Below are positions 1 to 24,486 of a stretch of 25,257 nt of DNA, in pieces. Each line of letters opens with the position of its first letter. The first letter of the stretch is position 1. The stretch spans positions 1-25,257 of IMG/VR virus record IMGVR_UViG_3300025769_000771. One strand, given 5' to 3'. The notes under the pieces were generated by a model. It had not been told where the DNA came from and did not search any database. It saw only the letters and a program-made list of their open reading frames with translations. Position numbers and translations under genes: made by a program. Source of the stretch: a virus.

Positions 1-326
1 CTTATGAAAAAGCAGGCGGTGGTTACAAAGGTGGTAAAGGAAAGAAACAAAAGTCATTAAGCAAATGGACAAAAGAAGAATGGGGAACCAAAAGTGGTAA
101 GCCAAGTACACAGGGCAAGAAGGCTACGGGCGAAAGGTACTTACCAAAAAAAGCAAGGCAGGCACTCTCATCGTCAGAGTATGCGAAGACTACGGCAGCG
201 AAAAGAAGAGGAACTGCAAAAGGAAAACAATTTGTTAAGCAGCCTAAAGCTATAGCTAAGAAGACAGCTAAATATCGTAAAGCAGCAAAAGGTGGTTTGA
301 TAGGTACACATAATAGATTATACTAA
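1..326 (+). CDS. DUF5872-like small basic phage protein, 5' end outside window
   Basis: The frame is open from base 3 to a TAA at 324-326, giving about 107 residues with the N-terminus missing. The protein is rich in Lys, Gly and Ala. It carries the pattern KWTKEEWGTKSGKPS, then GERYLPKKA, then SSEYAKTTAAKRR and GKQFVKQPK, which I recognise from memory as the DUF5872 family, common in marine phages and some large viruses. The function of that family is unknown. The strong positive charge suggests nucleic-acid contact or packaging inside the capsid, but that is inference. It ends in THNRLY, the same tail found on two of the next three genes. The first visible codons (YEKAGGG) are nearly identical to a segment of the next gene, so the two may share ancestry. 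Confidence 0.75.
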   Translation, partial: YEKAGGGYKGGKGKKQKSLSKWTKEEWGTKSGKPSTQGKKATGERYLPKKARQALSSSEYAKTTAAKRRGTAKGKQFVKQPKAIAKKTAKYRKAAKGGLIGTHNRLY

Positions 327-349
327 CATAAACAAACAGGAGAAATAAA

Positions 350-571
350 ATGGTATTAGGATTAGGATTAATTGGACAGGCTGTTAAACAAATAGAAAAA
401 CGTAAAGATAAAAAGAAAAAAAACGCTTTTAACGCTGGTGTTCAAGCTGGTATGGAAAAAGCAGGCGGTGGTGCAGGCATGTCACAACTTAAAAAAGGTG
501 GCATGGTTGGCAAGAAGAAAAAAGCCAAAGCTAAAAAAACTGGAGGCGCTCCGCACAATAGGTTATACTAA
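350..571 (+). CDS. Small lysine-rich protein ending in HNRLY
   Basis: This 73-residue protein has a short hydrophobic N-terminus (MVLGLGLIGQAV), a charged stretch of Lys/Arg, a Gly-rich middle (EKAGGGAG) and a Lys-rich tail ending in PHNRLY. The start at 350 is supported by an AGGAG motif at 339-343. The stop overlaps the next start as TAATG. I recognise no named family. Its charge and place among other basic mini-proteins just ahead of a head-completion gene suggest a minor virion or DNA-associated protein. A membrane or packaging role is possible, but nothing in the sequence decides it. Confidence 0.7.
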   Translation: MVLGLGLIGQAVKQIEKRKDKKKKNAFNAGVQAGMEKAGGGAGMSQLKKGGMVGKKKKAKAKKTGGAPHNRLY

Positions 572-864
572 TGGCAGTAAAGAAAAAAGATTCAAGGTTA
601 GCACGTGCAGGTGTAAGCGGTTTTAACAAACCAAAGCGTACACCTAATCATCCAAAGAAGTCTCACATTGTTGTGGCTAAAGAAGGCGATAAGATTAAGA
701 CTATCCGCTTTGGAGAGAAGGGTGCAAGCACCGCAGGCAAACCAAAGGCAGGTGAGTCAGCACGTATGAAGGCAAAGCGTAAATCATTTAAAGCTCGTCA
801 TGCAAAGAACATTGCTAAAGGTAAAATGTCAGCAGCGTATTGGGCAGACAAGGTTAAGTGGTAA
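571..864 (+). CDS. Conserved basic phage protein (possibly DUF6321)
   Basis: This 97-residue, strongly basic protein contains AGVSGFNKPKRTPNHPKKSH, then VVAKEGDKIKTIRFGEKG, and ends in KSFKARHAKNIAKGKMSAAY followed by WADKVKW. I recall this pattern as widespread in marine phages and in some databases as DUF6321; that label is from memory and not checked. The start overlaps the previous stop (TAATG), and its own stop overlaps the next start the same way, so translation is probably coupled. It lacks the HNRLY tail of its neighbours. The function is unknown. Nucleic-acid binding is plausible from its charge. Confidence 0.75.
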   Translation: MAVKKKDSRLARAGVSGFNKPKRTPNHPKKSHIVVAKEGDKIKTIRFGEKGASTAGKPKAGESARMKAKRKSFKARHAKNIAKGKMSAAYWADKVKW

Positions 865-1031
865 TGGCTATAAGTAGAGCAGCGACCAGTCAGCAGGTGA
901 GCAAACCTGGTACGAAAGGTAGGTGGTCTAATAATAATAAGTCTACTGGCACGGGACGTCCAAGGGGCGCAGGTCAGACGGCTCAAAGGCAGACTGGTCG
1001 CAACCAATCAGGACATAACAGATTATACTAA
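864..1031 (+). CDS. 55-residue basic protein ending in HNRLY
   Basis: This short gene starts at an ATG overlapping the previous stop (TAATG) and runs 55 codons to a TAA at 1029-1031. The product is rich in Ser, Thr, Asn, Gln, Gly and Arg with few hydrophobic residues, so it is probably disordered. It ends in SGHNRLY, the tail shared with two upstream genes, which is the main reason to believe it is real. It fills the gap between the basic-protein cluster and the head-completion gene exactly. The Shine-Dalgarno sequence of the next gene overlaps its stop codon. I recognise no family and propose no specific function. Confidence 0.72.
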   Translation: MAISRAATSQQVSKPGTKGRWSNNNKSTGTGRPRGAGQTAQRQTGRNQSGHNRLY

Positions 1032-1711: not shown

Positions 1712-1987
1712 ATGAGAGCAAAAAGAGTATTAGGTTTATGTGATACCTGTGGTTTTAGGTATGAGTTAAAAACTTTAAAAAAGAATAGCTATGGCATGAT
1801 GGTTTGTCCAGAAGATTGGGAAGGAAGTTATGACTTAAAGAATCATCCACAGAATAGAAATGCAAGATTAAGAGAAAATAATTTTGTTAGGAACGCAAGA
1901 CCTGACCCAAATATTGATAGAAATTTAAACTGGGAAGCTGTAGCTTCTAATTGGGAAGACGTCAACAAGGACTGGAATACTATATAA
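1712..1987 (+). CDS. Small protein with a degenerate zinc ribbon
   Basis: The product has 91 residues. Near the N-terminus it has Cys10-x2-Cys13 and a single Cys32, followed by the sequence CPEDWEGSYDLKNHPQNR. A full zinc ribbon would have a second CxxC pair. Here the fourth position is Asp35 or Trp36, so metal binding may be lost or completed by another residue. I recall similar HPQ-containing proteins lying beside gp4-like genes in many phages, with variable loss of the cysteines; this is from memory. The start is only three bases after the head-completion gene, and the stop overlaps the fibre start (TAATG). A structural or assembly role near the head-tail joint is inferred from its neighbours. 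Confidence 0.62.
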   Translation: MRAKRVLGLCDTCGFRYELKTLKKNSYGMMVCPEDWEGSYDLKNHPQNRNARLRENNFVRNARPDPNIDRNLNWEAVASNWEDVNKDWNTI

Positions 1988-4311
1988 TGACAAATTTAAC
2001 AGGTAAACAAATTGCAAATACATATAAGAGTCTTCTCACAGTTCAAACTAGTGTTGAAAACTCAGGGCTAGATTTAAATCTTAGACCAATTCAATCTGGT
2101 GATGGTACTAATTCATCTATGAAGCTATCGGAAACAAACGCTGCCTTTACTGGTAACGTAAGTGTTAATGGTAACCTAACAGTTGAAGGTACTTTTGAGC
2201 CTAACACAATTAATACTACTGAAGTACAGGCCACTAGAATAGTAGCGACTAGTATTACAACAGACGCACTCACTGCCGATACACTTATTTTTCAAGATGT
2301 AAGTGTAAGCAGCCTACGAACAGGCAACTTATATGCTGTTAATATTAGTGCGGGTACGGTTAGTGCTACGAATATTAATGGTACTAATATTACAGTAAAT
2401 GGTGATAATGTTGTAACATCTGCTGTTGTTGCCTCTGTTAATGCTATCTTTGCTGCTTCAATTGCTGCTAATGCTTCAGCCATTATTGTTAATGCCTCAG
2501 CCATTACAGTTCTTCAGACATCGGTAGCCGCTAACTCTTCAGCTATTGCTGTTAACTCAGCAGCTATTACTTCTATCAATAGCTTTATATCTGCTGGTGC
2601 TTTTGCTAGTGTAGGTACATCAGCTACGTTAGAAACTAGGATTGCAGCTGTAAGCAGCACGATGGCAACGAGCATTGGCAATAGTAATACAAACATCGCC
2701 GCTGTGTCTGCTCTAACAAAAACAAATAAAGATGCCATTACTTCGATTAACGGTATAATTGGAACAGGTGCTTTTGCAAGCGCAGGAACTTCTGCTACAT
2801 TAGAGACTAGAATTAATACAGTATCATCTACAATGGCAACTAGTATTGGTAATAGCAATACTGCAATTACTGCCTTGTCAGCTACGATGGCAACTAGTAT
2901 TGGTAATAGTAATACAAACATTGCCGCTGTATCTGTTCTAACAAAAACAAATAAAGATGCTATTACTTCCATTAACGGTATACTTGCAACAGGTGCTTTT
3001 GCAAGCGTAGGAACTTCTGCTACATTAGAGACTAGAATTAATACAGTATCAGCTACAATGGCAACTAGTATTGGTAATAGCAATACTGCAATTGCTACAT
3101 TATCAGCTACGATGGCAACCAGTATCGGCAATAAAGTATCTAAGTCTGGTGACACAATGACTGGAGACTTGTCGTTTGGTGATAACATCAAGATTAATTT
3201 AGGTGCAGGCTCAGACCTCAACCTGTATCACGATGGCTCTGACAGCATAATCGAGGATACTGGCACGGGCGACCTTATTATTAAGGCTTCTCAAAGAATC
3301 TATATGAAGGGTGTTAATGACGAAACTCTCATTAGGTCTACAGAAGACTCTCAGATTTCGTTATACCATAATGGTTTTGAAAAACTGTCTACTTTAAGCG
3401 GCGGAATCTTAGTCTATGGTAACCTGGCTGCAGTTGGTGGTACGTTTACTGGCAACGTAAGTGCCACTGGCACAGTCACGGCTAATGGGCTTGTTGTTGG
3501 TGGTATAAATTATCCAACATCAGATGGTACGGCTAATCAAGTTATTAAAACAGACGGCGCTGGAACTCTTGCTTTTACTTCAATTTCTGGTGGTGCTGTA
3601 GACAGCGTAAACGGAGAGACTGGCATAGTCGTATTGGATGCGGCTGATGTAGGTGCGCTGGCACTTACTGGCGGCACGTTGACTGGCGATGTGTCATTCG
3701 GCGACAACGACAAAGCCATCTTTGGGGCTGGCTCTGATTTGCAGATTTATCATGATGGGTCTGATAGCTATATCAATGACAGTGGTGTAGGCGACTTAAA
3801 ACTAGGCGGTAATCAACTACAGCTTAATAATGCCGCACAAACAGCAAATTATATTTATGCTGTTGATGGCGCACAGGTTGAATTAAAATACAATAACCTT
3901 CTTAAACTAACCACCACCGCCACAGGCATTGATGTCACTGGCACGGTCACGGCTGATTCAGGTAGTGTCACTGGCGAGTTTATCGCAACAAGTTACAACG
4001 AGACGTATGATGCGCTTTCAGGCACTACCCCAACTGTCGATTGCCACAATGGTAATATGTTCAGCCTGACAACGTCTGGCAACACCACATTCACGTTCAG
4101 CAATCCACCAGCATCAGGCACAGCCTTTGGGTTTACGCTCAAGCTGGTTGCGGGCGGAACGCACACAATCACATACCCAGCCTCTGTTGATTGGGCTGGC
4201 GGCTCTGCCCCTGATGCTCCTGCCTCTGGCGAGACTGATGTGCTTGTGTTTATTACGCACGATGGCGGCACAACTTGGTATGGCTTCCGTGCTGGAGACG
4301 CAATGGCATGA
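1987..4311 (+). CDS. Large repetitive tail fibre protein
   Basis: The product has 774 residues from the ATG at 1987, which overlaps the previous stop. An in-frame TTG start at 1951 would lie inside the upstream gene and is not needed. The N-terminal third is Ala/Ser/Thr-rich with regular MATSIGNSNT repeats, a likely trimeric stalk (residues about 170-385). Residues about 385-640 contain two beta-type units with GAGSDLNLYHDGSDSII and GAGSDLQIYHDGSDSYI, a pattern I know from marine-phage fibres. The C-terminus (TPTVDCHNGNMFSLTTSGNT to WYGFRAGDAMA) looks like a conserved fibre-end domain. GC content rises along the gene: I count 19 of 60 G+C at 2341-2400 and 35 of 60 at 4141-4200. Receptor binding is inferred from family resemblance. 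Confidence 0.85.
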   Translation: MTNLTGKQIANTYKSLLTVQTSVENSGLDLNLRPIQSGDGTNSSMKLSETNAAFTGNVSVNGNLTVEGTFEPNTINTTEVQATRIVATSITTDALTADTLIFQDVSVSSLRTGNLYAVNISAGTVSATNINGTNITVNGDNVVTSAVVASVNAIFAASIAANASAIIVNASAITVLQTSVAANSSAIAVNSAAITSINSFISAGAFASVGTSATLETRIAAVSSTMATSIGNSNTNIAAVSALTKTNKDAITSINGIIGTGAFASAGTSATLETRINTVSSTMATSIGNSNTAITALSATMATSIGNSNTNIAAVSVLTKTNKDAITSINGILATGAFASVGTSATLETRINTVSATMATSIGNSNTAIATLSATMATSIGNKVSKSGDTMTGDLSFGDNIKINLGAGSDLNLYHDGSDSIIEDTGTGDLIIKASQRIYMKGVNDETLIRSTEDSQISLYHNGFEKLSTLSGGILVYGNLAAVGGTFTGNVSATGTVTANGLVVGGINYPTSDGTANQVIKTDGAGTLAFTSISGGAVDSVNGETGIVVLDAADVGALALTGGTLTGDVSFGDNDKAIFGAGSDLQIYHDGSDSYINDSGVGDLKLGGNQLQLNNAAQTANYIYAVDGAQVELKYNNLLKLTTTATGIDVTGTVTADSGSVTGEFIATSYNETYDALSGTTPTVDCHNGNMFSLTTSGNTTFTFSNPPASGTAFGFTLKLVAGGTHTITYPASVDWAGGSAPDAPASGETDVLVFITHDGGTTWYGFRAGDAMA
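2572..3150 (+). repeat. Tandem coding repeats in the tail-fibre stalk
   Basis: Three units begin at 2572, 2743 and 2968 with SIN and continue with GAFAS(V/A)GTSATLETRI and MATSIGNSNT. The middle unit is 225 bases (75 codons). The first is 171 bases (57 codons) because it lacks one 18-residue MATSIGNSNT block. The third runs out near 3150. The DNA copies are nearly identical between units 2 and 3, so copy number could change by recombination. Confidence 0.85.
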
Positions 4312-5087
4312 GTATAGCCAGAGAACTTCAAATGGCGGCGGCTGGCGCAGATACTGGTGGAGGTGGGTTCAGTCCTGCCGACATTGCCGACCTAAAACTA
4401 TGGCTTGACGCTACTGATGGCTCTACCTTGTTTCAGGACACGGCCAAAACAACTAGTGCGTCATCAGATAACGACCCAGTAGGCTGCTGGGAAGACAAGT
4501 CTGGCAATGGGTTTGACTTTGACCAAAGCACATCTGCTAGACGCCCGACCTTGGACACAGGTACAATGAGCTTGAATAGTTTAAATCTTGTACCGACAGC
4601 CGATAGTGGCGGCGGTCAATGGCTTGAAAATTCTACCTGCACCGACACAATTACCTTGTTTCAGGTGTTGCAGTACAACAGTAATAGTGCTGGCGTGTCG
4701 TTTGGTATAGGCGCATCTTATAATGGGTATTTTACATTCAACGCCTCTCTCGGTACAAACTATGTGGCGGCTGCTTTAAGTGGATTTAGAACTGTAGGTG
4801 ATAGTTATAGTCGTATAGCATCAGGAAATGACGCAATTATTAGTGGCGACCTAGTAAACTTTTTACGTGAAAACGGAACTCAGTACGCAGTTAATAGCGG
4901 ATACAACTATACCAGCAATGCAAACAACATTGGCTCTTACATTGGTAGGCGTGGCTTGTCGATTGGCGACCACAAACCATTCGACGGAAATGTCGGAGAG
5001 GTTATCGCTTACGAGAGAAGATTATCAGCAACCGAAATTGGTCAGGTTGAATCTTATTTATCAGACAAATGGAGTATTACAATATGA
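4308..5087 (+). CDS. LamG / concanavalin-like adhesin of the tail fibre
   Basis: The product has 259 residues from the ATG at 4308, which overlaps the fibre stop as ATGA; an earlier start at 4275 would sit deep inside the fibre gene. After a short N-terminus and a Gly-rich linker (GADTGGGGF) comes DLKLWLDATDGSTLF, then a Trp-containing segment ending DKSGNGFDF and ARRPTL. Near the end is GEVIAYERRLSATEIGQVES followed by YLSDKWSI. This start and finish are typical of LamG or concanavalin-like lectin domains in phage and bacterial surface proteins. A role in binding host glycans at the fibre tip is inferred from the fold and from its place between the fibre and its probable chaperone. Confidence 0.78.
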   Translation: MSIARELQMAAAGADTGGGGFSPADIADLKLWLDATDGSTLFQDTAKTTSASSDNDPVGCWEDKSGNGFDFDQSTSARRPTLDTGTMSLNSLNLVPTADSGGGQWLENSTCTDTITLFQVLQYNSNSAGVSFGIGASYNGYFTFNASLGTNYVAAALSGFRTVGDSYSRIASGNDAIISGDLVNFLRENGTQYAVNSGYNYTSNANNIGSYIGRRGLSIGDHKPFDGNVGEVIAYERRLSATEIGQVESYLSDKWSITI

Positions 5088-5864: not shown

Positions 5865-7136
5865 AAGGATTAAAAATGGCATCAACATATACTACACGAA
5901 TTGGTTTAGAAAAACAAGGAGATGGCGAGAACGCTAACACTTGGGGTCTTAAGTTAAACTCAAATGTTATTGACCTTGTAGACGAAGCCATTGCTGGTTA
6001 CGAAACTATTGACCTTTCTTCAGGTGCAGTAACTTTAACTGATACTAATGGTGTTCCTAACCAAGCTAGAAACTTTGGATTAAAGTTTACTGGTGCTTTG
6101 ACAGCAGACACAACAGTAACTATTCCTGCTAAAGAAAAAATTTATTATATCTTTAATGACACAACAGAAAACTACACTATTTATATTAAGCCAGCAGGCG
6201 GTACAGTAGTATCAGTAGTTGAGGCTGGTCGTAGCATGATTGCTGCTACTGATGGTTCTAACATTAACTTGCTTGAAAGTGTTGACCCTAATATTTATGC
6301 AACCAAAGTAGAGGTTCAAGCTGTATCGGCTACTATGGCAACAAGTATTAATAACAGTAACGTAGCTCGTGCATCTTTATCAGCTACGATAGCAACAAGC
6401 ATTAATAATTCTAATGTAGCAATTGCTGCAAACACAAGTATTATTGCGGTTGTATCTTCAACAATGGCAACGAGCATCTCCAATACTAACTCACGTATTG
6501 CTGCAACTTCTCTTGCCTTAGCTACAAGTATTTCAAATAGTAACTCAGCTATTACAACAGTATCTGCAACTCTTGAAAGTAGAATTGCAACCGTAAGTGC
6601 AAACTTAGCAAATGGTTCTTTTGTTGTTGCGGCAGCCACAAGTGTTGTTTATCCGTTTCCTTCTGGAACTCGTTTAGTTTTTCAACAAACAACTGCTCCT
6701 GTTGGGTGGACAAAGGTAACAACAGATAATAACAAAGCACTTCGCCTTGTAAATGGAACTGTTGGCTCTGGTGGTACTCAGCCATTCACAACAGCATTTG
6801 CAAGTCAGGCTGTTAATGGTTCTGTGTCTGGTACAGTAGCTAATCACACTCTAACGCTTGCTGAAATTCCAAGTCACACTCACTTTGTAGCAAATAGTGA
6901 TGCAAACTCAACCCCTGTCCTTTCTAATGAATCAGTTACATATGGTAGCGCTGGTGGGCTAGGAAATAGTGATTACGTTTTAGGGGGAACAACATCAACG
7001 CCTAACAGGGGTTTGTCTAGCCCCTCAGGTGGCGGCGGCGCACACAATCACGGATGGTCAGGAAGTTTTTCTGGTACTGCAATTGACATGACTGTTCAAT
7101 ATGTTGACGTAATTATTGCATCAAAGGATTAAAAAT
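5864..7136 (+). repeat. 14-bp direct repeat bracketing the second fibre gene
   Basis: The sequence aaaggattaaaaat occurs at 5864-5877 and again at 7123-7136. Each copy holds the Shine-Dalgarno sequence and runs up to or into the next start codon. The copies bracket the whole fibre gene, so they could be simple conserved ribosome-binding sites or a junction used for cassette exchange. Confidence 0.7.
5876..7132 (+). CDS. Tail fibre with stalk repeats and phage tail-collar domain
   Basis: The product has 418 residues. The N-terminal part (TTRIGLEKQGDGENANTWGL) is a domain I recognise from many marine-phage fibres. Residues about 145-245 form a Ser/Thr/Asn-rich stalk with MATSINNSN and ATSISNSN repeats, closely matching the stalk of the first fibre. 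The C-terminal third is collar-like: GTRLVFQQTTAPVGWTKVTT, then ALRLVNGTVGSGG, LAEIPSHTH and, after a glycine run, AHNHGWSG. The paired His motifs recall the metal-binding tip of T4 gp12-type short fibres. It probably contacts the host surface. AAGGA just upstream supports the start. Confidence 0.85.
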   Translation: MASTYTTRIGLEKQGDGENANTWGLKLNSNVIDLVDEAIAGYETIDLSSGAVTLTDTNGVPNQARNFGLKFTGALTADTTVTIPAKEKIYYIFNDTTENYTIYIKPAGGTVVSVVEAGRSMIAATDGSNINLLESVDPNIYATKVEVQAVSATMATSINNSNVARASLSATIATSINNSNVAIAANTSIIAVVSSTMATSISNTNSRIAATSLALATSISNSNSAITTVSATLESRIATVSANLANGSFVVAAATSVVYPFPSGTRLVFQQTTAPVGWTKVTTDNNKALRLVNGTVGSGGTQPFTTAFASQAVNGSVSGTVANHTLTLAEIPSHTHFVANSDANSTPVLSNESVTYGSAGGLGNSDYVLGGTTSTPNRGLSSPSGGGGAHNHGWSGSFSGTAIDMTVQYVDVIIASKD

Positions 7137-7427
7137 ATGAAAATGGAAGTTGAAAATAATTGTCCAATAAACAAATTTGAACCCTGTAAAAAATTACAGT
7201 GTTCGTGGTTTATAGAGGTTCGTGGTACGCACCCGCAAACTGGAGAAGATATAGCTGAATGGGGTTGTTCAATGGCTATGCTTCCTATGCTTATGATTGA
7301 GAACGCTAGACAATCTTCTCAAACTGGGGCAGCGGTTGAAAGCTTTAGAAATGTTATGGTTGAACAACAAGAAAAAATATTACAGTTAGCACAAGCTGGA
7401 GAGGTTGAAACAAGACTTATTAGATAA
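7137..7427 (+). CDS. Small four-cysteine phage protein
   Basis: The product has 96 residues from the ATG at 7137, ten bases after an AAAGGA motif; the alternative TTG at 7116 overlaps the fibre gene and lacks a site. Cysteines lie at 9, 17, 22 and 44 in the pattern CPINKFEPC, KKLQCSWF and EWGC. The C-terminal half is helical (LMIENARQSSQTGAAVESFR). I recall this pattern as common in marine podoviruses, always uncharacterised. Four conserved cysteines suggest a zinc or iron-sulfur site, which is inference. The stop overlaps the tail-hub start (TAATG), so it may act in hub assembly. Confidence 0.68.
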   Translation: MKMEVENNCPINKFEPCKKLQCSWFIEVRGTHPQTGEDIAEWGCSMAMLPMLMIENARQSSQTGAAVESFRNVMVEQQEKILQLAQAGEVETRLIR

Positions 7428-9280
7428 TGGCATCAACTGACACAAAACCTTTAACGCTTAACTTCTTACCTGGTTTTCACAGAGAGTCTACGCAGTACTC
7501 TGAAGAAGGCAAGTGGTATGATGGTAATCGTGTTCGCTTTCGTGAAGGTAAACCTGAAAATATAAGAGGCTATGAAAAGTTTTCTGATTCTATTGTTGAT
7601 GGAATTCCAAGAGATATCTTAACATGGACAGATAATCAAACAAGACCTTATATTGGTATTGGTACTAACACACATTTGTATGCTTTTCAAAACCAAACGC
7701 AATATGATATTACTCCTATTGTCTGTGTTGTATCTGTATCTGGTAACTTTGAAACCTATACTAATAAAACACTTGTTAGAGTTAGTATAAATAATTTTAT
7801 CACAAGCACAACAGATAGAGTTGAGTTTTCTGGCGTTGCTACTATTGGTGGCAATTTAAACATTAATGGCATCTCTACAGTTGTTAGCATTTCAGGTACT
7901 AATAGTTTTTATATTGATGCTGGCGTTACTGCCGCATCTGCTTCAGCTGACCAAGGTTCAGCAGGTAACATTAGTTTCTTTTTACAGAATGAAGAGTCTG
8001 ATGCTATTCAAGGTTTAGGTTATGGTGCTGGTATTTATAATGCTGGCGTCTCTATATCAGGCGCAAGAGCTTGGAACGAAGAAGCAGCGGAAAGTGCCAT
8101 TACATTCTTGCCATCAATGTGGCAGTTAGATACTTGGGGTGAAGACCTATTAGCTTTACGCAGAGGTGGTCAACTATATGTAGCAGACATTGACGCATCA
8201 ATTGTTCCGACACGTTCTTATGTTATATCAGCTTCACCAACAGCTACAACTTTCTTAGTGTCTCCTAATGATAGACACGCTATTTGTTATGGTGCAAGAG
8301 AGTTTGCAACAACAGTAGGTACTGGAATTAACCCAATGCTTGTGCGTTGGTCAGACCAAGAAGACTACACCAACTGGACACCAAGTGCCATTACTACATC
8401 TGGTGAAGTTGTGCTTGCAGAAGGCTCTAGAATTGTAGGGGCTAATCGTTCACGCAATGCTATTAACATTTGGACAGACAGAGCTATGTATACTCAGTCT
8501 TTTGTTGGTCCTCCTTTTATCTTTAGCTTTACTCAAGTAGGTTCTAACTGTGGTTTGATTGGGCAACACGCACATGTGGATTTTGACGGCGTGTCTTATT
8601 GGATGGGTGATAATAACTTCTATGCCTTTGATGGTAGAGTTCAAGTATTGCCTTGTACTATTAGACGACATCTGTTTGATAACTTTAACATGACAAACAA
8701 AGAAAAAGTATTTGCTGCAATTAACTCAGAGTTTAAAGAAATCATTTGGCTATATCCATCTAGTACTAGCTCTGAGCCAGACTCATATGTTATATACAAC
8801 GTAGAGGAGCGTACGTGGGTATACGGTAAATTATTTGAGAATGGTATAGTAACTCTATTTGCTGATAGGAATGTTTATGATAGTACAATTACAGTTGGCA
8901 AAACATCCCCAAGCAATTCTTATTTTGTATACAATAATGAGCCTGACGAAATCTATACAGGTGATGGACAACCTTTAACTTCGTATCTACAGTCAGCTGA
9001 GTTTGATTTAGACGAGGGTAAGAGCTTAATGTTTATAGATAGAATCATTCCTGATTATTATTTTGACGCTGGTGAAACAGTTAAGATGGAAGTAAACATT
9101 AAACAATATCCAAACTCTACTATGAAAACAAAAGGTCCGTTTACTATATCTCAAAATACAAAGAAGGTAGACCTAAGAGCAAGGGGCCGTCTTGCTGATG
9201 TAAAGGTTACAGCAACTAACTCTGGAGCTTGGAGGTGGGGTTCTGTTAAACTATCACTACAACCTGATGGAGACAGGTAA
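7427..9280 (+). CDS. Tail hub / tail tube structural protein (P22 gp10 or T7 gp12 type)
   Basis: The product has 617 residues and is rich in beta structure. The N-terminus (LPGFHRESTQYSEEGKWYDG, NRVRFREGKPENIRGYEKF) and the middle (WSDQEDYTNWTPSAITTSGE, then IVGANRSRNAINIWTDRAMY) are signatures I know from large tail proteins of marine podoviruses. They are sometimes labelled phage stabilisation protein and compared with P22 gp10. A beta-propeller-like tail hub or nozzle that extends the gp4-like adaptor is the likely role. The assignment rests on remembered patterns, the length and its place. It overlaps both neighbours by TAATG junctions. Confidence 0.7.
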   Translation: MASTDTKPLTLNFLPGFHRESTQYSEEGKWYDGNRVRFREGKPENIRGYEKFSDSIVDGIPRDILTWTDNQTRPYIGIGTNTHLYAFQNQTQYDITPIVCVVSVSGNFETYTNKTLVRVSINNFITSTTDRVEFSGVATIGGNLNINGISTVVSISGTNSFYIDAGVTAASASADQGSAGNISFFLQNEESDAIQGLGYGAGIYNAGVSISGARAWNEEAAESAITFLPSMWQLDTWGEDLLALRRGGQLYVADIDASIVPTRSYVISASPTATTFLVSPNDRHAICYGAREFATTVGTGINPMLVRWSDQEDYTNWTPSAITTSGEVVLAEGSRIVGANRSRNAINIWTDRAMYTQSFVGPPFIFSFTQVGSNCGLIGQHAHVDFDGVSYWMGDNNFYAFDGRVQVLPCTIRRHLFDNFNMTNKEKVFAAINSEFKEIIWLYPSSTSSEPDSYVIYNVEERTWVYGKLFENGIVTLFADRNVYDSTITVGKTSPSNSYFVYNNEPDEIYTGDGQPLTSYLQSAEFDLDEGKSLMFIDRIIPDYYFDAGETVKMEVNIKQYPNSTMKTKGPFTISQNTKKVDLRARGRLADVKVTATNSGAWRWGSVKLSLQPDGDR

Positions 9281-11206: not shown

Positions 11207-13632
11207 TTTTATTTGAAAAGAAAAATAAATACGGTAGCTTTGATGACTTAATGGGTGTATCTATTGAGACAGGGGACAAGTGGCTTGATAAAAAATTAAA
11301 CTCTAATTTATGCTATAGCGCTCTTTTTGGTGGTGGCGGCAGCAGCCCAGCGCCGCAAGATGTTCCAAAAACATTACGTCCTTATGTAACGCAAATTCTT
11401 GATAGAGCCAAAGGTCTTTATGGAAGTTATACGCCTCAAGCACTTTATCAAGGCGAAAGAATTGTGGGCTTTACTCCAACAGAACAAGCAGCGCAAGCTG
11501 GTGTAGCTGGTATGGTTGAGCGTGGTATTTCTGGCGACCCCGCACTAACATCTGCTGGCACTTACTATCAACCAGCATTAGGTTTGTTAGGCGCAGGCGC
11601 ACAACAACAACAAGCAGCTAGTGGATTGCTTGGCGCTATTGCTCCAACATTAGGCGCATCTGGCGCTCAGTTTGAAGGAGCAGCAAGAACTCTTGGTGGC
11701 GTGGCTCCAGCATTACAACAATATCAACAAAGAGTAGGTGGAGCAGAACAAACCTTAGCGGGTGTTAGCCCAGAACTACAAGCATATAGACAGAGATTAA
11801 GAGGTGCTGAAGCTATGCTTGGTGCAACTGCTCCTACATTGTCTCAGTACGAACAACAGCTACAACAAGCAGCGCAAACATACGGTGGCGCACAACAACA
11901 GTTAGGCAGAGCAGAAGAAGCAGCAAGAGCAGGTACTGGTTCTGTTGGTATTGGTGAGTTAGATACTGCTAGATATATGTCACCTTATCAGCAACAAGTA
12001 ATTGATATTGAAAAGCGTCAAGCTAAGCAAGATGCTGTAGAGATTGCTCAAGCTATCGGCGCTAAAGCAGCAGGCATGGGAGCCTTTGGTGGTTCACGTC
12101 AAGCTATTCTTGAAGGCCAAGCTCTATCAGATTTAGGTACTCGTCTTTCAGACATTCAAACACGAGGCTCACAAGCAGCTTATGACCGTGCTTTGCAGAC
12201 AGCTGCACAACAACAACAACTGCAATATGGCGAAGATGTAGCTGCTCTTGGTAGACAATCTACACTTGGTCAGGCTCTTGCTGGATTAGCAGGCGCACAG
12301 ACGGGCATTGGTCAACAGCAGGCAGGTCTTGGCATCTCTGGTTATGGCGGCCTTGCAGGAGCAGGTCGTGAAACCGCAGCACAGCTTGCAGGATTGGGTG
12401 GTCAGTATGGTAACATTGGTCAACAAGTGGGAGCATTGGCTGGACAACAAGCCCAGCTTGGCGGTTTATATGGTGACATTGGACAACAACTTGGTTCATT
12501 AGCTGGGCAACAAGTAGGTGTGGGTCAAGCAGTAGGTCAACTTGCTGGTCAATATGGCGCAGGTGCTGGTGCTATGGGGCAACAAGCAGGAGGTCTTGCT
12601 AGTCTGTCCCAAGCCTTTGGTAATCTTGGTCAACAAGCTCTTGGGCAAGGATACAGAGAACAAGGTTATCTTGCTGGTGTCGGTGAACAAGAACGTGCCT
12701 TGCAGCAACAACGTGCAGACCTTGCATATCAACAGTTTGTTGAGCAACGTGATTATCCAGATGTTCAGCTTCAAAAGTTCTCATCTCTTGTTCAAGGTTT
12801 TCCTTTTAATTTTCAACAAACCCCACAACAACCAAGCGGCTTTCAACAGGCAGCTGGTGGTGCGCTTGCTTTGGGTAGTCTTGGTAAAAACCTTGGCTTC
12901 TTTAATAAAGGCGGTCAGGTTAACGGAGACAGAGAAGACGGTATTAGTGGTACTGTTTACAGACAGGCTGGCGGTCTTCCTGGTTCATCTGGAGGTATTG
13001 CTGGCTTACCTTTCGACTATGATATTGAAGAATTAAAAAAGTACTTAGCTGAAACACGCTTTGATAGGGCAGCCAAAGAAGAAGCTTTAGATGAACGTAA
13101 AAGGGCAGCGCAAGCTCAAGCCTTAGCTCAAGCTGCTCAAGGTGTTCTTGGTGCAGACCCAAGAGCAGGCGGCATTGCTTCTTTAATTTCAGGAGCAGTA
13201 AAAGCACAACCAGCTATGACTCAACTCGCAGAGATACGAGCGGAAAGAAAAGGCATTGGGGCTGAAGAACGTAAAGCTAATATTGCAGATTACTTAACTG
13301 TTAAACAGCTAGAAGACTTAGAAGCTAAAAGACAAAAGGCAATGGCTGAAGCAATTAAAGCAGCAGCGGTAGACCCTGAAAAAGGTACAGATGTAAAGTC
13401 GGTTTTTGATTTGATAACTAGGAAAACTGGATACACAGTTGATGATACGACAGGAACAGTTTTAATAAACGGTCGGGGTGTAACATCAAACGTGCAAGAT
13501 GCAGTATATGATTTTACAAACAAGGCAATAAGAAAGGCAAACACGTTTAGACAGACACACCCGAGAGAGTGGATAGCTAAAACTTCCGAGTGGATAGCTG
13601 AAAATAAACCACAGTTTCCTGAAGAGCAGTAG
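11203..13632 (+). CDS. Gln/Gly/Ala-rich internal virion (DNA ejection) protein
   Basis: The product has 809 residues. The start overlaps the previous stop (ATGA). After a short charged N-terminus comes YSALFGGGGSSPAPQDVP and a conserved segment with YQGERIVGFTPTEQAAQAGV, which I recall from marine podoviruses. Residues 137-220 are four tandem 21-residue repeats, and residues 398-439 two more of a different 21-residue type (LGGxYGxIGQQ). The middle is extremely Gln/Ala/Gly-rich. The C-terminal third is charged and helical. This composition is typical of proteins expelled with the DNA or forming a periplasmic conduit. No enzymatic motif is seen. Confidence 0.65.
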   Translation: MILFEKKNKYGSFDDLMGVSIETGDKWLDKKLNSNLCYSALFGGGGSSPAPQDVPKTLRPYVTQILDRAKGLYGSYTPQALYQGERIVGFTPTEQAAQAGVAGMVERGISGDPALTSAGTYYQPALGLLGAGAQQQQAASGLLGAIAPTLGASGAQFEGAARTLGGVAPALQQYQQRVGGAEQTLAGVSPELQAYRQRLRGAEAMLGATAPTLSQYEQQLQQAAQTYGGAQQQLGRAEEAARAGTGSVGIGELDTARYMSPYQQQVIDIEKRQAKQDAVEIAQAIGAKAAGMGAFGGSRQAILEGQALSDLGTRLSDIQTRGSQAAYDRALQTAAQQQQLQYGEDVAALGRQSTLGQALAGLAGAQTGIGQQQAGLGISGYGGLAGAGRETAAQLAGLGGQYGNIGQQVGALAGQQAQLGGLYGDIGQQLGSLAGQQVGVGQAVGQLAGQYGAGAGAMGQQAGGLASLSQAFGNLGQQALGQGYREQGYLAGVGEQERALQQQRADLAYQQFVEQRDYPDVQLQKFSSLVQGFPFNFQQTPQQPSGFQQAAGGALALGSLGKNLGFFNKGGQVNGDREDGISGTVYRQAGGLPGSSGGIAGLPFDYDIEELKKYLAETRFDRAAKEEALDERKRAAQAQALAQAAQGVLGADPRAGGIASLISGAVKAQPAMTQLAEIRAERKGIGAEERKANIADYLTVKQLEDLEAKRQKAMAEAIKAAAVDPEKGTDVKSVFDLITRKTGYTVDDTTGTVLINGRGVTSNVQDAVYDFTNKAIRKANTFRQTHPREWIAKTSEWIAENKPQFPEEQ
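11611..11862 (+). repeat. Four tandem 63-bp (21-residue) coding repeats
   Basis: Units start at 11611, 11674, 11737 and 11800. The shared pattern is GAExxLxGxxPxLxxYxQxL, clear in the last three units and weaker in the first. They lie in frame without gaps and are probably a helical rod. Confidence 0.75.
12394..12519 (+). repeat. Two tandem 63-bp coding repeats of a second type
   Basis: Units at 12394-12456 and 12457-12519 encode LGGxYGxIGQQxGxLAGQQ. A third, degraded unit follows (VGQAVGQLAGQYG). The period is again 21 residues, although the sequence is unrelated to the earlier block. Confidence 0.75.
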
Positions 13633-19537: not shown

Positions 19538-19906
19538 ATGTGGCAATCATTACTATCACCAATCAGCAGTCTTGCTGGCAAGTGGATGGAGGGGCGTCAG
19601 CGTAAGACAGAACTGAAAGGCAAGCTTGAAGAAGCAAAGCTAAAGGGACAAATCAAACGTGCTTCTAGCGATGCGGCATGGGAAACCAAAGCTATGGAGG
19701 CTTCTTCTGATTCTTGGAAGGACGAGCTTTGGACACTTTTTTTCGTTGGCTTGCTGTGTGCCTGCTTCTATCCTCCAGCACAACCATACATTGCAGACGG
19801 GTTTAGATTCCTAAGAGAGGATTGTCCTGAGTGGCTATCGTGGGGCATACTTGTAAGTATTGGTGCAAGCTTCGGTGTTAAATCAATCGGTGCGCTTAAG
19901 AAGTAA
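19538..19906 (+). CDS. Holin of the gene-transfer-agent 3TM type
   Basis: The product has 122 residues. The N-terminal half is a charged helix (KWMEGRQRKTELKGKLEEAK to AKLKGQIKRASSDAAWETK). The C-terminal half contains DELWTLFFVGLLCACFYPPA, then FLREDCPEWLSWGILVSIGA and SFGVKSIGALKK. This is the pattern of the GTA_holin_3TM family, made by alphaproteobacterial gene-transfer agents and many phages, which holds membrane segments separated by a Pro-rich loop. It would let the lysozyme reach the wall. GGAG at 19529-19532 supports the start. The stop lies inside an inverted repeat shared with the convergent gene. Confidence 0.8.
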   Translation: MWQSLLSPISSLAGKWMEGRQRKTELKGKLEEAKLKGQIKRASSDAAWETKAMEASSDSWKDELWTLFFVGLLCACFYPPAQPYIADGFRFLREDCPEWLSWGILVSIGASFGVKSIGALKK

Positions 19907-19911
19907 GCGCA
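19891..19911. terminator. Possible bidirectional terminator on convergent stop codons
   Basis: TGCGCTTA and TAAGCGCA form a perfect 8-bp inverted repeat with a 5-base loop (agaag). It contains the stop codons of the holin gene (plus) and of the dehydratase gene (minus), which overlap by 11 bases. There is no long T-run on either side, so terminator strength is uncertain. Confidence 0.45.
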
Positions 19912-20939
19912 GACTCCATCATCTCTTCAATCAAAGTAGTAAAGGTATAGTTAGGTTTCCAGCCAAGGACTTCACGTGCCTTGGTAGAATCACCAAGCAG
20001 CAAGTCAACTTCGGCTGGTCGGTAGAACTCAGGGTTGATATTGACTACCATGTTTTCATTCTCATCGTAGGCTTTCTCAAAGATGCCTTCACCTTCCCAG
20101 CGGATACGCATGTCTACCTTTCTAAAACAAATCTCTACTAGCTCACGTACTGAATGAAGCTCACCTGTAGCTAACACGTAGTCATCTCCGTGGTCATGCT
20201 GCACCATACGCCACATGCCTTCGACATAATCCTTAGCATGTCCCCAATCACGTTGGGCATCTAAGTTGCCAAGGCTAATATACTCCTGTTTACCACGTGC
20301 AATGTTAGCTACACCCTGTACAATCTTCTGTGTAACAAACTCTGAGCCACGCCAAGGTGACTCGTGATTAAATAAGATACCATTGGATGCGTGTATGCCA
20401 TAGCTTTCACGATAGTTCTTTACTGTCCAGAATCCAAACTGCTTAGCTACCCCATAAGGAGAGCGTGGATAGAAGGGTGTAGTCTCTGATTGTGGTGTCT
20501 CAACAACCTTACCATAAAGCTCAGAGGTGGACGCTTGATAGAATCTGGTGTAATCCTCCATACCAAGAGAACGAATGCACTCCAGCAGCCTTAATACCCC
20601 CATACCGTCCACGTCAGCAGTGTATTCTGGTACGTCAAAAGACACTCTGACATGTGACTGTGCTGCTAGGTTGTATACTTCATCGAATAAGTGGGTATCA
20701 AACAGACGCATAAGGCTACCTGAATCAGACAAGTCACCATAGTGCAGTGTAAGATTAGGGTTCTTTATCAGGTGTGCTATACGAAAGGATGGTTCTGAAG
20801 ACACACGACGACACAAGGCGTGTACTATGTAGCCCTTCTCAAGCAATAGCTCTGCTAGATAGCCGCCGTCCTGTCCTGTAATGCCTGTAATTAGAGCAGT
20901 CTTTTCTCTAAACTTATTCACTGGTGGCATCTTCATCAT
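19896..20939 (-). CDS. gmd: GDP-mannose 4,6-dehydratase
   Basis: The product has 347 residues, close to the usual length. It converts GDP-mannose to GDP-4-keto-6-deoxymannose, the precursor of GDP-fucose, GDP-rhamnose or GDP-perosamine. The Rossmann motif is GITGQDGGYLAELLLEKGY (residues 19-37), which binds NADP. The catalytic residues known for E. coli Gmd (Thr132, Glu134, Tyr156, Lys160) appear here as Thr138, Glu140 (QASTSELYG), Tyr162 and Lys166 (SPYGVAKQ), offset by a constant 6. The NNHESPRRG-type loop reads NHESPWRG. The start overlaps the upstream gene by 26 bases; AAGGAG lies 4 bases before the first ATG and 7 before the second, which may be the true start. No following reductase is in the window. 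Confidence 0.92.
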   Translation of the reverse strand: MMKMPPVNKFREKTALITGITGQDGGYLAELLLEKGYIVHALCRRVSSEPSFRIAHLIKNPNLTLHYGDLSDSGSLMRLFDTHLFDEVYNLAAQSHVRVSFDVPEYTADVDGMGVLRLLECIRSLGMEDYTRFYQASTSELYGKVVETPQSETTPFYPRSPYGVAKQFGFWTVKNYRESYGIHASNGILFNHESPWRGSEFVTQKIVQGVANIARGKQEYISLGNLDAQRDWGHAKDYVEGMWRMVQHDHGDDYVLATGELHSVRELVEICFRKVDMRIRWEGEGIFEKAYDENENMVVNINPEFYRPAEVDLLLGDSTKAREVLGWKPNYTFTTLIEEMMESALTS

Positions 20940-21426
20940 CTAGCTCCTTGAGTATATCGTAATCTTCTTCATCAGCATATTCTTCTTCTGGTTCTTCGTA
21001 GTCTTCATCGAAGTCTTCTGGGAATGTTTGCATGAGTAATTCATACATCTTTTCTTTGCCAATGATTTGCATTGATGCACAGATGCGACCCTCAAGTCCT
21101 TCAATGTTCTGTGGTGCATCGTCATCGGCACTATTGCCACGTATACGAGATAGAATCTCAAGGGCTTTAAGTGCCGTAGCACCATTGCCATTTGCTTTAG
21201 CTGCTTCATACTGCTTTTCAAGCTCTGTGATAACGTCTACATCTGTGTTGTACTCAGACTCAAGTTCTGCTAGGCGCTCTACAATCTGTGGTTCTTTTAG
21301 AAGCCTCCAGCCTTGGTTGTGTGCTGAGCGTTCAGAGTATCCTGCTGAGATGGCAGACTGCGTAGCGTTCTTACTAATAAGATACGACTGGCAGAATTTT
21401 TCCATACGTTTATTTAGAACGGGCAT
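20914..21426 (-). CDS. Terminase small subunit
   Basis: The product has 170 residues. The N-terminal part, MEKFCQSYLISKNATQSAIS followed by AGYSERSAHNQGWRLLKEP and ERLAELE, is the pattern of the Terminase_2 small-subunit family, with a helix-turn-helix that recognises the phage packaging site. The C-terminal 45 residues are extremely acidic (Asp/Glu-rich), possibly a regulatory or large-subunit contact region. The large subunit is not in the window. AAGGA lies at a good distance before the ATG at 21426, which overlaps the upstream gene by 17 bases. It is unusual to find it between sugar-modification genes and on the strand opposite the structural genes. Confidence 0.82.
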   Translation of the reverse strand: MPVLNKRMEKFCQSYLISKNATQSAISAGYSERSAHNQGWRLLKEPQIVERLAELESEYNTDVDVITELEKQYEAAKANGNGATALKALEILSRIRGNSADDDAPQNIEGLEGRICASMQIIGKEKMYELLMQTFPEDFDEDYEEPEEEYADEEDYDILKELDDEDATSE

Positions 21427-23722
21427 TCATATATTCCTTGAATGTTTGAGAGTTCTTGCTGTAGTGAGACATGTCCCACACACCACGAGCCAGGCTGTTC
21501 TCACCGTAAAACTTTAAGTTAAGTCCCAAGTCTTTTTTCTCTAGCATCTTCTCCAAGTCTTGAGCTAATGCAAGAAGCTCACCAGTAGTCCAGTAGTTTA
21601 CATCGTCAATCTCAACGTGCATGTACTTAGGATTACCTGCTTCATCTTTAGAGTCTTTGTTTTTCTTTGCCACTTTCTCTGAGACAGAGCAATCAAAGCC
21701 AAACATGTGGATGTTCCTGTAGCCAAGAGTTTCAAGCAGCCCTAGCGTACGAGTAGCTGATGCCGTACCACCTGACACTAATGATGTGCCATTTGGAATA
21801 GGTAGGGACGGGTCGATAACAATTTTATCTTTAATGCTTTCGTCTCTGATGCCATCAGTAAAGGCGTGGAAGCCCATAACATTATCTGTCTTGTCCATAA
21901 TGTAGTTGACAACAGATGTGTCAGTCATAGAAGCAATGATAAATAATGTACTTGGGTCAATCTCTTTAAACAACTCTGTTCGCACGATGCCATGTGTGCT
22001 TGTGCCTTTGATAGGACGTGGGTCAAGAATGACACAGGCATACGGCTTAATACCTTCAGCTAACAAGCGTGGGTATGCGTGTTTAACACACCAGATTTTA
22101 CCACCTGTTTTCTTTTGAACTTTTCGAATCTCTTTGAAATCTAATGTACCACCCGACACTACAATCGCATGGTCGTTGGTTGGCTTATAGTTTTTAACCC
22201 AATCAAACTCACCAATCTTAGGTACATTGTGTCTAATGTTATCTTTGATATGTTCTTGTGGCATAGAATCTTTAGGCTTAACAATAATAGGCACACGTGA
22301 TAGTTCTTTGGGAATATCTTTTACATCTGGTTTGGTTACAACAGCTAAGTGTACGTTACCACCTAATGCCATACCGTCTTGAGAAGGCAGTACCTTTTTG
22401 TTTCGGTCTTTAATCTCTTCAATAGTTTTGATAATGCCCTTGTGTTCCTCTGGCATTTCTTTGTCCTTCTCCACAGAGTAGAAGTCATCGAAGACAACAA
22501 CGTCTACGTCACGTAAGAAGCCGTAGTCATTCTGTACTGTATCGTATGAATGCCCACCATCAATGAAAGCAAAGTCAACCTTATCAAAGCTAACCTGCTC
22601 CATTGTTTCGTTGGTGTTACCAGCATACAAGCTCCAGCTAAATGTTTTACCATTTTCTAACATCTTCTGTGAAAAGTCATCAAGTCTTTTGTTAACCAAG
22701 TCTTCTGAGTTGTGTGCCTTGATGTTAAGCTCAAGCTTGTCTGTCTCATCAGTCGCTTGCTCAAACAAATCAAAGCCCATGTAGTGTACTTCGTCTACGT
22801 TATCGTAAGCAGCAAGCGCCATTTCAATAGCACGTCCGCCGTTCCATGTCCCAGTCTCTGCAATAATAAATACTTCTTTATCTTCTGAGTAGTGACGTAC
22901 AAGAGTAGCTAGTTGCTTGTATCTTTCTGGTCCAGTAACATCTTGTGATACACTGTTTGCCTTTTCTTTTACAGCAGCAACATCAAACTTTAAGTTGCCC
23001 TTGTTATGTACAAAGTATTCGTCCAACATGCACTGGTCAAAGACAGATAGACCACGTACACCTTCTGAAAGGTTACGAACTTTGGCTCCATGTGCTTCGT
23101 AGATTTTAAGTAGACGTGTAAAGATAAAGGCATCAGTCCACTCACGATAACCAAACACTTCATCTGTGTCATAAGCACCACGTAAATCAATCAGCAAAGA
23201 TGCTGCATTGTGGTACGCCATATTGAATGCCATGAAGCCTGTCTCGCTATAGTCAATATCAATACGACCAAGGTGTACAATGTCTACCTCTGGAATCATA
23301 ATCTTAGCAGCATCTTCTGCCTTAAACATTTTCTTTGTAACTGTGTCAGCATCAATCCATGCAAGCCATCCTTGGTCTTGGTTGTTTAGCATCTCAAGGG
23401 CTACGTCTGTCAGTGCATATACTTTATGGCAAAAGCGAAGCGCATCCATACGGTAATTGTATGGGGCTTCAGCGTAGTTACCATTCTTATCCTTGTTGCG
23501 TTCAATAAAGTTATTACGTGCATCAATACTTTCAATGTGTCGATACTCAATGACACCATCTAAATCATTTAAAGGAAGTTCGTCAAGGCTGTCATAGCCC
23601 TCAACGTAAGCGATAAGCTTGGTGTCACTTGGCTTCCAGTTCTTAGCTACAGACTCAAGCATCATACGTGCATAGACATCCTCGTGTTTCTTATGAAAGC
23701 TTGTTACAAAGGTGTATGTCAT
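21410..23722 (-). CDS. Glycosyltransferase / methyltransferase / DUF115 fusion protein
   Basis: The product has 770 residues from the ATG at 23722, which overlaps the upstream stop (TAATG) behind GGAGA. The earlier start at 23776 lies inside the previous gene. Three domains are visible. Residues 1-250 look like a GT-A glycosyltransferase with a D124-A-D126 motif (WLAWIDADT). Residues about 260-465 look like a class I SAM methyltransferase of the Methyltransf_24 type, with AETGTWNGGRA (288-298), IDGGHSYD (387-394) and VFDDFYS (410-416). Residues about 515-745 match DUF115 (MptE/Maf-like), with AIVVSGGTL (519-527), VILDPRP (564-570) and a helix and strand ending MFGFD (673-677). Maf proteins transfer nonulosonic acids to flagellin. 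A phage protein or the host surface could be the target here. The domain calls are from remembered motifs. Confidence 0.8.
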   Translation of the reverse strand: MTYTFVTSFHKKHEDVYARMMLESVAKNWKPSDTKLIAYVEGYDSLDELPLNDLDGVIEYRHIESIDARNNFIERNKDKNGNYAEAPYNYRMDALRFCHKVYALTDVALEMLNNQDQGWLAWIDADTVTKKMFKAEDAAKIMIPEVDIVHLGRIDIDYSETGFMAFNMAYHNAASLLIDLRGAYDTDEVFGYREWTDAFIFTRLLKIYEAHGAKVRNLSEGVRGLSVFDQCMLDEYFVHNKGNLKFDVAAVKEKANSVSQDVTGPERYKQLATLVRHYSEDKEVFIIAETGTWNGGRAIEMALAAYDNVDEVHYMGFDLFEQATDETDKLELNIKAHNSEDLVNKRLDDFSQKMLENGKTFSWSLYAGNTNETMEQVSFDKVDFAFIDGGHSYDTVQNDYGFLRDVDVVVFDDFYSVEKDKEMPEEHKGIIKTIEEIKDRNKKVLPSQDGMALGGNVHLAVVTKPDVKDIPKELSRVPIIVKPKDSMPQEHIKDNIRHNVPKIGEFDWVKNYKPTNDHAIVVSGGTLDFKEIRKVQKKTGGKIWCVKHAYPRLLAEGIKPYACVILDPRPIKGTSTHGIVRTELFKEIDPSTLFIIASMTDTSVVNYIMDKTDNVMGFHAFTDGIRDESIKDKIVIDPSLPIPNGTSLVSGGTASATRTLGLLETLGYRNIHMFGFDCSVSEKVAKKNKDSKDEAGNPKYMHVEIDDVNYWTTGELLALAQDLEKMLEKKDLGLNLKFYGENSLARGVWDMSHYSKNSQTFKEYMNARSK

Positions 23723-24486
23723 TACATGTTCTCCAGTATTAGTTGTGTTGTTATTTCTGCTTCGGCTTGTTCCCACTCTTCAACGTAGGCTTCTTCAACA
23801 GGGCGGCTGGCCTTCCACTTATCAAACCAAGGACCTCCTGTAGTAAAGTGTACGTTCTTAGCCTCGACTTGTGGGTCAGAGAAACCGTCTAGCCAGTTCC
23901 ACTCAGGATGGATAGCACCAATCTCCTCGTCGTCTAGCCATCCAAAAGAATGGAGCCACCCACCAGTCCGAAGATTAACATCGTCTACTGTAAGCTTTAA
24001 GTTAGATGGGTGACTACAATTAAATAACATAAAGCTAGACCAGTTCTTTCTGTGGTATCTCGTCTGAGCTACACCGTCCATCTTAATAGAGGACTCTGGT
24101 TCATACTTATGTTGTACGCACTGTACTGCATACTCTTCGTTCTTTCCATAGACATCAAAGATACCTGCTATGTCTGCACGTACAAACATATCGGCATCCA
24201 TAAACAAAGCTAAGCCATCGTACTGGTTTAGTGCGGGTACTAGGAAGCGTGTGAAGGTAAAGTCTGTACTGAATGGGCGTCCATCAAACACATCATAGCG
24301 TTGATTAGGTTCGTGTAGGAAGACACGAGAGGCTCTGCGATACAAACCATTGCGGCGTAGTGCAGGCTCCATAAGTGGGATGATGTCATACTCTTTATTG
24401 TACTTACGAATAGAATGTGCCAGAACCTCAAAGGCTCTATGGTCACGGTCATCGTATCCAATATAAATTACGGGTCTTTTCTTCAT
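23722..24486 (-). CDS. GT-A (GT8-like) glycosyltransferase
   Basis: The product has 254 residues. It begins with PVIYIGYDDRDHRAFEVLAH, typical of bacterial and phage transferases of the nucleotide-diphospho-sugar type. The metal-binding D97-A-D99 lies in LALFMDADMFVRADI. Later motifs are SSFMLFNCSH and FTTGGPWFD, as in GT8 and related families. The donor and acceptor sugars cannot be told from the sequence. It is the first gene of a four-gene minus-strand operon that also makes a 6-deoxyhexose precursor. The start has GGAG five bases upstream. The mRNA leader carries a strong hairpin (24505-24557). Confidence 0.8.
   Translation of the reverse strand: MKKRPVIYIGYDDRDHRAFEVLAHSIRKYNKEYDIIPLMEPALRRNGLYRRASRVFLHEPNQRYDVFDGRPFSTDFTFTRFLVPALNQYDGLALFMDADMFVRADIAGIFDVYGKNEEYAVQCVQHKYEPESSIKMDGVAQTRYHRKNWSSFMLFNCSHPSNLKLTVDDVNLRTGGWLHSFGWLDDEEIGAIHPEWNWLDGFSDPQVEAKNVHFTTGGPWFDKWKASRPVEEAYVEEWEQAEAEITTQLILENM

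Follow-up and report, generated by a model that had tools for sequence, protein, structure and literature searches.

A shared HNRLY C-terminus on unrelated small basic proteins of an uncultured phage group, a candidate docking tag for the phage head

To our knowledge, how tailed phages choose the small proteins of their heads is known in few models only, chiefly T4. The capsid targeting sequences (CTS) of T4 are short terminal peptides on the divergent small basic internal proteins IPI-III; they are N-terminal, about 10 residues long, and are cut off by the prohead protease (PMC9026906). Encapsulin cargo-loading peptides are short, C-terminal and linker-borne, and the encapsulin shell is a relative of the HK97-fold capsid (PMC7355545). 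The chlorovirus PBCV-1-specific basic adaptor domain is found on the virion DNA-associated proteins A278L and A282L (PMC3281028).

We have analyzed a complete IMG/VR record of 25,257 bases (the window), itself a phage genome fragment, together with its relatives. An uncultured, mostly marine phage group puts the end HNRLY on many unrelated small basic proteins. Like the T4 CTS, HNRLY is a short terminal peptide common to divergent small basic proteins encoded with head genes, and the cargo varies between related phages; unlike the CTS, it is C-terminal and five residues long, with 113 C-terminal occurrences and no internal or N-terminal ones. The analogy is one of function, no homology is claimed, and incorporation of the cargo is putative here. 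With the encapsulin loading peptides it shares a C-terminal position behind a linker, predicted to be flexible, on several non-homologous proteins, and the tagged genes lie among head genes much as encapsulin cargo genes lie beside the shell gene. However, encapsulin cargo consists mostly of enzymes and ferritin-like proteins, with a known binding pocket, whereas the HNRLY cargo is small and basic, and the counterpart of the encapsulin shell is the capsid protein of this phage group (phrog_371, PF25209). HNRLY resembles no cargo-loading peptide known to us, those of encapsulins included. The PBCV-1 basic adaptor is alike by analogy only, as a small basic module on proteins that associate with virion DNA; unlike the pentapeptide it is a domain, and it comes from a eukaryotic algal virus. 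On these analogies, the best-supported reading is that HNRLY would work like the T4 CTS or the encapsulin loading peptides while being a member of neither.

In the window, HNRLY followed by a stop closes three + strand ORFs (3-326, 350-571 and 864-1031 in the ORF reading of the window). The features of the cluster are:

3-326, + strand: small basic protein 1, C-terminal 107 aa; phrog_14910 domain, E 2.7e-33
309-326, + strand: HNRLY tag 1 and stop, CATAATAGATTATACTAA; codons CAT AAT AGA TTA TAC TAA
350-571, + strand: small basic protein 2, 73 aa; linker KKGGMVGKKKKAKAKKTGGAP, then HNRLY
554-571, + strand: HNRLY tag 2 and stop, CACAATAGGTTATACTAA; codons CAC AAT AGG TTA TAC TAA
571-864, + strand: untagged neighbour, phrog_7595 protein, E 2.7e-43; ends AYWADKVKW
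864-1031, + strand: small basic protein 4, 55 aa (MAISRAATSQQV...); ends RNQSG-HNRLY
1014-1031, + strand: HNRLY tag 3 and stop, CATAACAGATTATACTAA; codons CAT AAC AGA TTA TAC TAA
1043-1708, + strand: tail adaptor, SU10/Pam1-type; PF24175, E 3.3e-11

An initial annotation of this DNA had claimed that three small proteins, ending at 326, 571 and 1031, finish with the same five residues, and that the protein at 571-864 lacks this tail. The DNA bears out the three tails, and the fourth protein does end differently, in ..DKVKW; the description as three small proteins needs one amendment, since the first ORF is incomplete, cut by the window edge. Its start lies beyond that edge, and the full-length relative (L004:2655-3098) has 147 aa, with a phrog_17747-like part upstream of the phrog_14910 domain. 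The phrog_14910 profile covers ORF 3-326 at profile positions 4-80 of 80, and behind the domain stands a C-terminal extension, AAKGGLIGT-HNRLY. Profile searches gave no match for ORFs 350-571 and 864-1031. The 350-571 family has HNRLY-ending relatives in L007 and L020, in the latter at a different slot. No exact HNRLY tail beyond these three is present in the 25,257-base window. Pairwise comparison of the three tagged bodies gave at best E 0.05-0.09 over 7-21 residues, or no match; the bodies are not duplicates, and simple gene duplication as the source of the shared tails was rejected on this lack of significant homology.

The first relatives were fetched from IMG/VR by means of the tail adaptor and the untagged phrog_7595 protein, i.e. 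not by the motif. Among the ORFs of the window and of relatives fetched by similarity, HNRLY is the commonest C-terminal 5-mer (108 of 19,297 ORFs). A DNA-motif scan added many more unrelated basic ORFs with this end, their bodies falling into ~22 credible clusters. Over all proteins of the phage group, at least 19 body families end in HNRLY, and the second most frequent C-terminal 5-mer ends 4; the figure of 19 takes in loci found by motif search and is biased in that respect, while the single-linkage grouping of bodies lumps Lys-rich proteins and makes family counts if anything low. Enrichment in related phages, a check proposed with the initial annotation, is strong by this measure. As a positional control, 5-mers taken 10-30 residues inside the C-terminus reach at most 3 body families. 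In the motif-independent subset (71 families from adaptor-fetched loci), HNRLY is found on 5 families, any other tail on at most 2, and internal 5-mers on at most 2. With such positional controls the family counts reject chance as the source of the shared tail. The scan of 254,865 residues placed HNR[LI]Y at the C-terminus of 113 distinct proteins and in the interior of none. In whole-record searches of larger contigs, tagged records have 1-4 HNRLY tails each, on a single strand and up to ~23 kb apart.

The three tails of the window use different synonymous codons for His, Asn and Arg, as originally noted, and across the group the variation extends to all six codons of the tag, stop included (TAA/TAG), while the peptide stays constant. 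Thus selection acts on the peptide. The codons of the residues before the tag (QSG, ISG, GAP or CS) vary silently as well. Codon use in the tag is skewed: AGG makes up 48% of the Arg codons in tags versus 8% genome-wide, and TAC 63% versus 27%. The Arg skew arises because AGG doubles as the Shine-Dalgarno sequence of the next gene: of the 35 tails with a stop that overlaps the next ATG, 30 have AGG, versus 18 of the 59 others (Fisher p 1.7e-7), and all 37 tails with AGA are followed by a separate ribosome-binding site. The window fits this pattern. The stop of tag 2 overlaps the next ATG (571-573), with its AGG (560-562) positioned as the Shine-Dalgarno; the other two tags have AGA, and the gene after tag 1 has its own ribosome-binding site, CAGGAG, while an own GGAG site stands directly after tag 3. 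The remaining skew suggests that some tails have also spread by copying. A nucleotide-level element was rejected on the codon variation and on the ribosome-binding cause of the Arg skew.

The tag comes and goes on related bodies. Outside the group, and in some phages within it, the phrog_14910 domain ends in KKTAKYRK, while the tagged members have ~12-23 extra residues after the domain, e.g. AAKGGKISGHNRLY. HNRLY closes the 864-1031 family proteins of some phages; in other phages their end is RRP, RRK, KNRLY or RGKS. The proteins L280:12179-12628 and L080:3838-4269, 83% identical over 125 aa, carry different tails, GGAPHNRLY in L280 and RGMGVALRGGGAVSKR in L080. A tag swap was also considered for the 350-571 family of the window (L051:3756-4079, RG tail), and was dropped for too weak a body match. 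Cargo is exchanged behind the tag as well. Between the phrog_7595 gene and the adaptor gene, L375, L377 and L378 encode a protein with a SAP-like N-terminus, and L380 and L381 one whose N-terminus is unrelated to it; both kinds carry the same tagged C-terminal half (KKSAGMSVGRANYPGKKK..HNRLY), of which L382 has a more divergent copy. HNRLY is thus a modular, exchangeable add-on, strictly C-terminal and selected as a peptide. The family counts, the codon variation and these swaps of tag and cargo give strong support to the earlier claim that unrelated proteins bear a C-terminal tag under selection. A constant tail on a variable body looks like a targeting signal for changing cargo.

Tagged genes occur only among head and late structural genes, and only in a single lineage of head modules. 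In the larger contigs the gene order is TerL, (tag), portal, GroES, scaffold-like, capsid, adaptor-like, (tags), phrog_14910, phrog_7595, (tag), tail adaptor, where the name scaffold-like is based on gene position only. Tags stand mostly between TerL and the tail adaptor. One slot separates TerL from portal, another comes behind the adaptor-like gene downstream of capsid, and another precedes the tail adaptor, which in nearly all relatives bounds the tagged cluster downstream; a further tagged slot, between lysozyme and a conserved phrog_8198-type protein, is outside the head block proper. All of the 232 located HNR[LI]Y copies are on the strand of the head genes and none on the opposite strand. 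Of the 61 group loci that extend 1.5 kb or more upstream of the adaptor, 53 have 1-3 tags near it; the other 8 have no HNR[LI]Y there, so that individual members of the families can do without the tag. HNR[LI]Y was found in none of 79 phrog_7595 loci without the head genes of the group, and in none of 80 loci with a DSL-LC04-type capsid. This position and this restriction to one head module support the original suggestion that the tag serves the head, and the restriction, read from sequence, favours a receptor encoded by the phage. Where read, the capsid proteins of the group share 80-89% identity with the one from L280, against 57% for the nearest isolate. A presence/absence search for the receptor singled out no protein: the nearest relatives lacking the adaptor-side tag keep the same capsid protein (86-89%) and bear other tags. 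The untagged phrog_7595 neighbour (571-864), a protein widespread in phages outside the HNRLY group, may also be a head protein.

Several minor features of the window may be recorded here. The 571-864 protein weakly matches an internal stretch of the minor head protein/DNA pilot profile phrog_220 (E 1e-5). A long structural ORF at 1987-4311, with repeated TMATSIGNSN / TKTNKDAITSINGI units, is probably a tail fibre. The terminase small subunit (20914-21426, - strand) lies on the opposite strand amid sugar and glycan genes, its neighbours being a GDP-mannose dehydratase (19896-20939) and an MptE-like plus methyltransferase protein (21410-23776).

The tagged proteins are basic, with a median net charge of +0.21 per residue versus +0.02 for other small ORFs. 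A full-length model of a phrog_14910 protein has pLDDT of about 85-92 in the body and below 50 at tail residues 135-147, and the tail is accordingly predicted to be disordered and flexible. The fold of this domain has no credible match in the PDB, and its good matches among viral models are only to uncharacterised or unnamed proteins; the capsid, portal and scaffold-like proteins of the group have no sequence match in the PDB. The cargo N-terminus L375:342-668, outside the window, gave no match in a Pfam search and weak fold matches (best Z 4.9, model pLDDT 66), mostly SAP/LEM-like: CDNF/MANF C-terminal domains, Tho1, SLX4, emerin and FAN1.

We propose, with a probability of roughly 0.6, that HNR[LI]Y-COOH is a flexible docking tag, bound by a component of the head module, that brings changing small basic proteins to the forming head. 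A linker rich in Lys and Gly (typically ..GGK[VI]..) would connect the tag to the small basic proteins, a set that changes from phage to phage and is produced along with the head genes. Its free C-terminus would be bound by the group's own head-module component, in the capsid interior, the scaffold or the portal region, and the binding would bring the tagged proteins into the forming head. The basic bodies, some with folds that may resemble those of DNA-binding proteins, would contact the packaged DNA and may be delivered with it. A head protein as receptor, packaging of the cargo and an action of the cargo on DNA are what we infer from these observations; procapsid loading or attachment to portal or terminase, as put forward in the initial annotation, we likewise infer. 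The tag could instead bind the terminase/portal packaging motor or the DNA-entry vertex, which would make the tagged proteins packaging or connector accessories and not shell cargo. Some genomes do have a tagged gene exactly between TerL and portal, and many tagged genes adjoin the tail adaptor, but most slots come after the capsid gene, and the number and identity of the tagged proteins vary freely among close relatives, unlike essential parts of a motor; we regard this as rather unlikely.

Variable cargo with a constant terminus, and bodies of which some look nucleic-acid binding, would also fit docking of phage proteins onto a host factor, e.g. after ejection into the next cell. Since the tag goes with one head module and is missing from all 159 related loci that lack this module, we consider such docking improbable. 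The tag might otherwise be a stability or processing signal for a phage or host protease (a degron, an anti-degron or a maturation site). Short fixed C-termini are typical of such signals, and T4 head proteins are trimmed in maturation (PMC9026906). However, the occurrence of the same body with a quite different terminus speaks for docking, although it would also be compatible with a protease signal, which we consider quite doubtful. The polar/aromatic ..RLY end, which follows varied residues (G, P, S, T), is moreover unlike the bacterial C-degrons that we know of, which also counts against it. Finally, the shared ends could be a by-product of recombination at a DNA hot spot, or a DNA or RNA signal (promoter, terminator or translational coupling). 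The skewed codon use of the tag and the probable spread of some tails by copying would agree with this, but the Arg skew has its cause in ribosome binding, all six codons vary where the peptide does not, and junctions formed at random would not leave the motif at the very end of 113 proteins and inside none; this reading is very improbable and largely refuted.

There were no HNRLY tails in the regions read of the isolated relatives HTVC023P, CRP-901, DSL-LC04, Pag-Yong1 and 023Pt_psg01, nor in those of isolated relatives among Alcaligenes and Caulobacter phages, and a search of five whole records gave 0. Megablast of the first 12 kb of the window against phage genomes and tblastn of one tagged protein against phages (E 10) found no match, and an adaptor scan of bacterial and archaeal genomes, run to trace a host, found no relative. 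The phage collection contains no isolates of the HNRLY group, the closest capsid protein being 57% identical. A full-text search for HNRLY, in which most subscription journals were outside coverage, returned no paper, and neither did one for small basic proteins of virions that carry C-terminal motifs. We found no published description of the tag, and with this coverage its novelty is provisional. A five-residue tag would allow many unannotated small ORFs in a group of uncultured phages to be recognised by sequence. It would also direct attention to a defined head module as the place of a receptor, and would serve as a minimal signal to load foreign proteins into phage capsids.

HNRLY may be one of several tags. 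The end GxGxAxRGxGKAMK is found on at least 8 unrelated families, after the capsid gene, and ERNPYGxNYQKLI on 4 families, just after the portal. A GGx[IV] linker precedes the end in 99% and 100% of these, respectively, and in 76% for HNRLY, versus 5% of other small ORFs. The RG-type end and HNRLY replace each other on one body, that of the L280/L080 pair. It is possible, if speculative, that at least three tags (HNR[LI]Y, GxGxAxRGxGKAMK and ERNPYGxNYQKLI) make up an address code by which interchangeable basic cargo is directed to the head or to different sites within it; if so, tags would be exchangeable on one body and cargo exchangeable behind one tag. Examples of GxGxAxRGxGKAM(K) are L281:10040-10846, L286 (reversed) 3333-4439 and L288 (reversed) 6266-7797, among many others. 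Ends of the type [EK][RK]NPYxxNYQK[ML]I occur on larger post-portal proteins (L280:6687-7322, L288 (reversed) 286-1257 and L290 (reversed) 34-1697), and L290 has two unrelated proteins with NPYxxNYQK[ML]I-type ends in tandem. In DSL-LC04-type phages small basic post-portal proteins have [VT][KR]I[YC] ends (L277:5398-6003, L295-L374), and in Pelagibacter phage HTVC023P (L275:2141-2878 and 12966-13349) ends of the form GAAxRGxxFxGV[FK] are seen near the portal and the adaptor.
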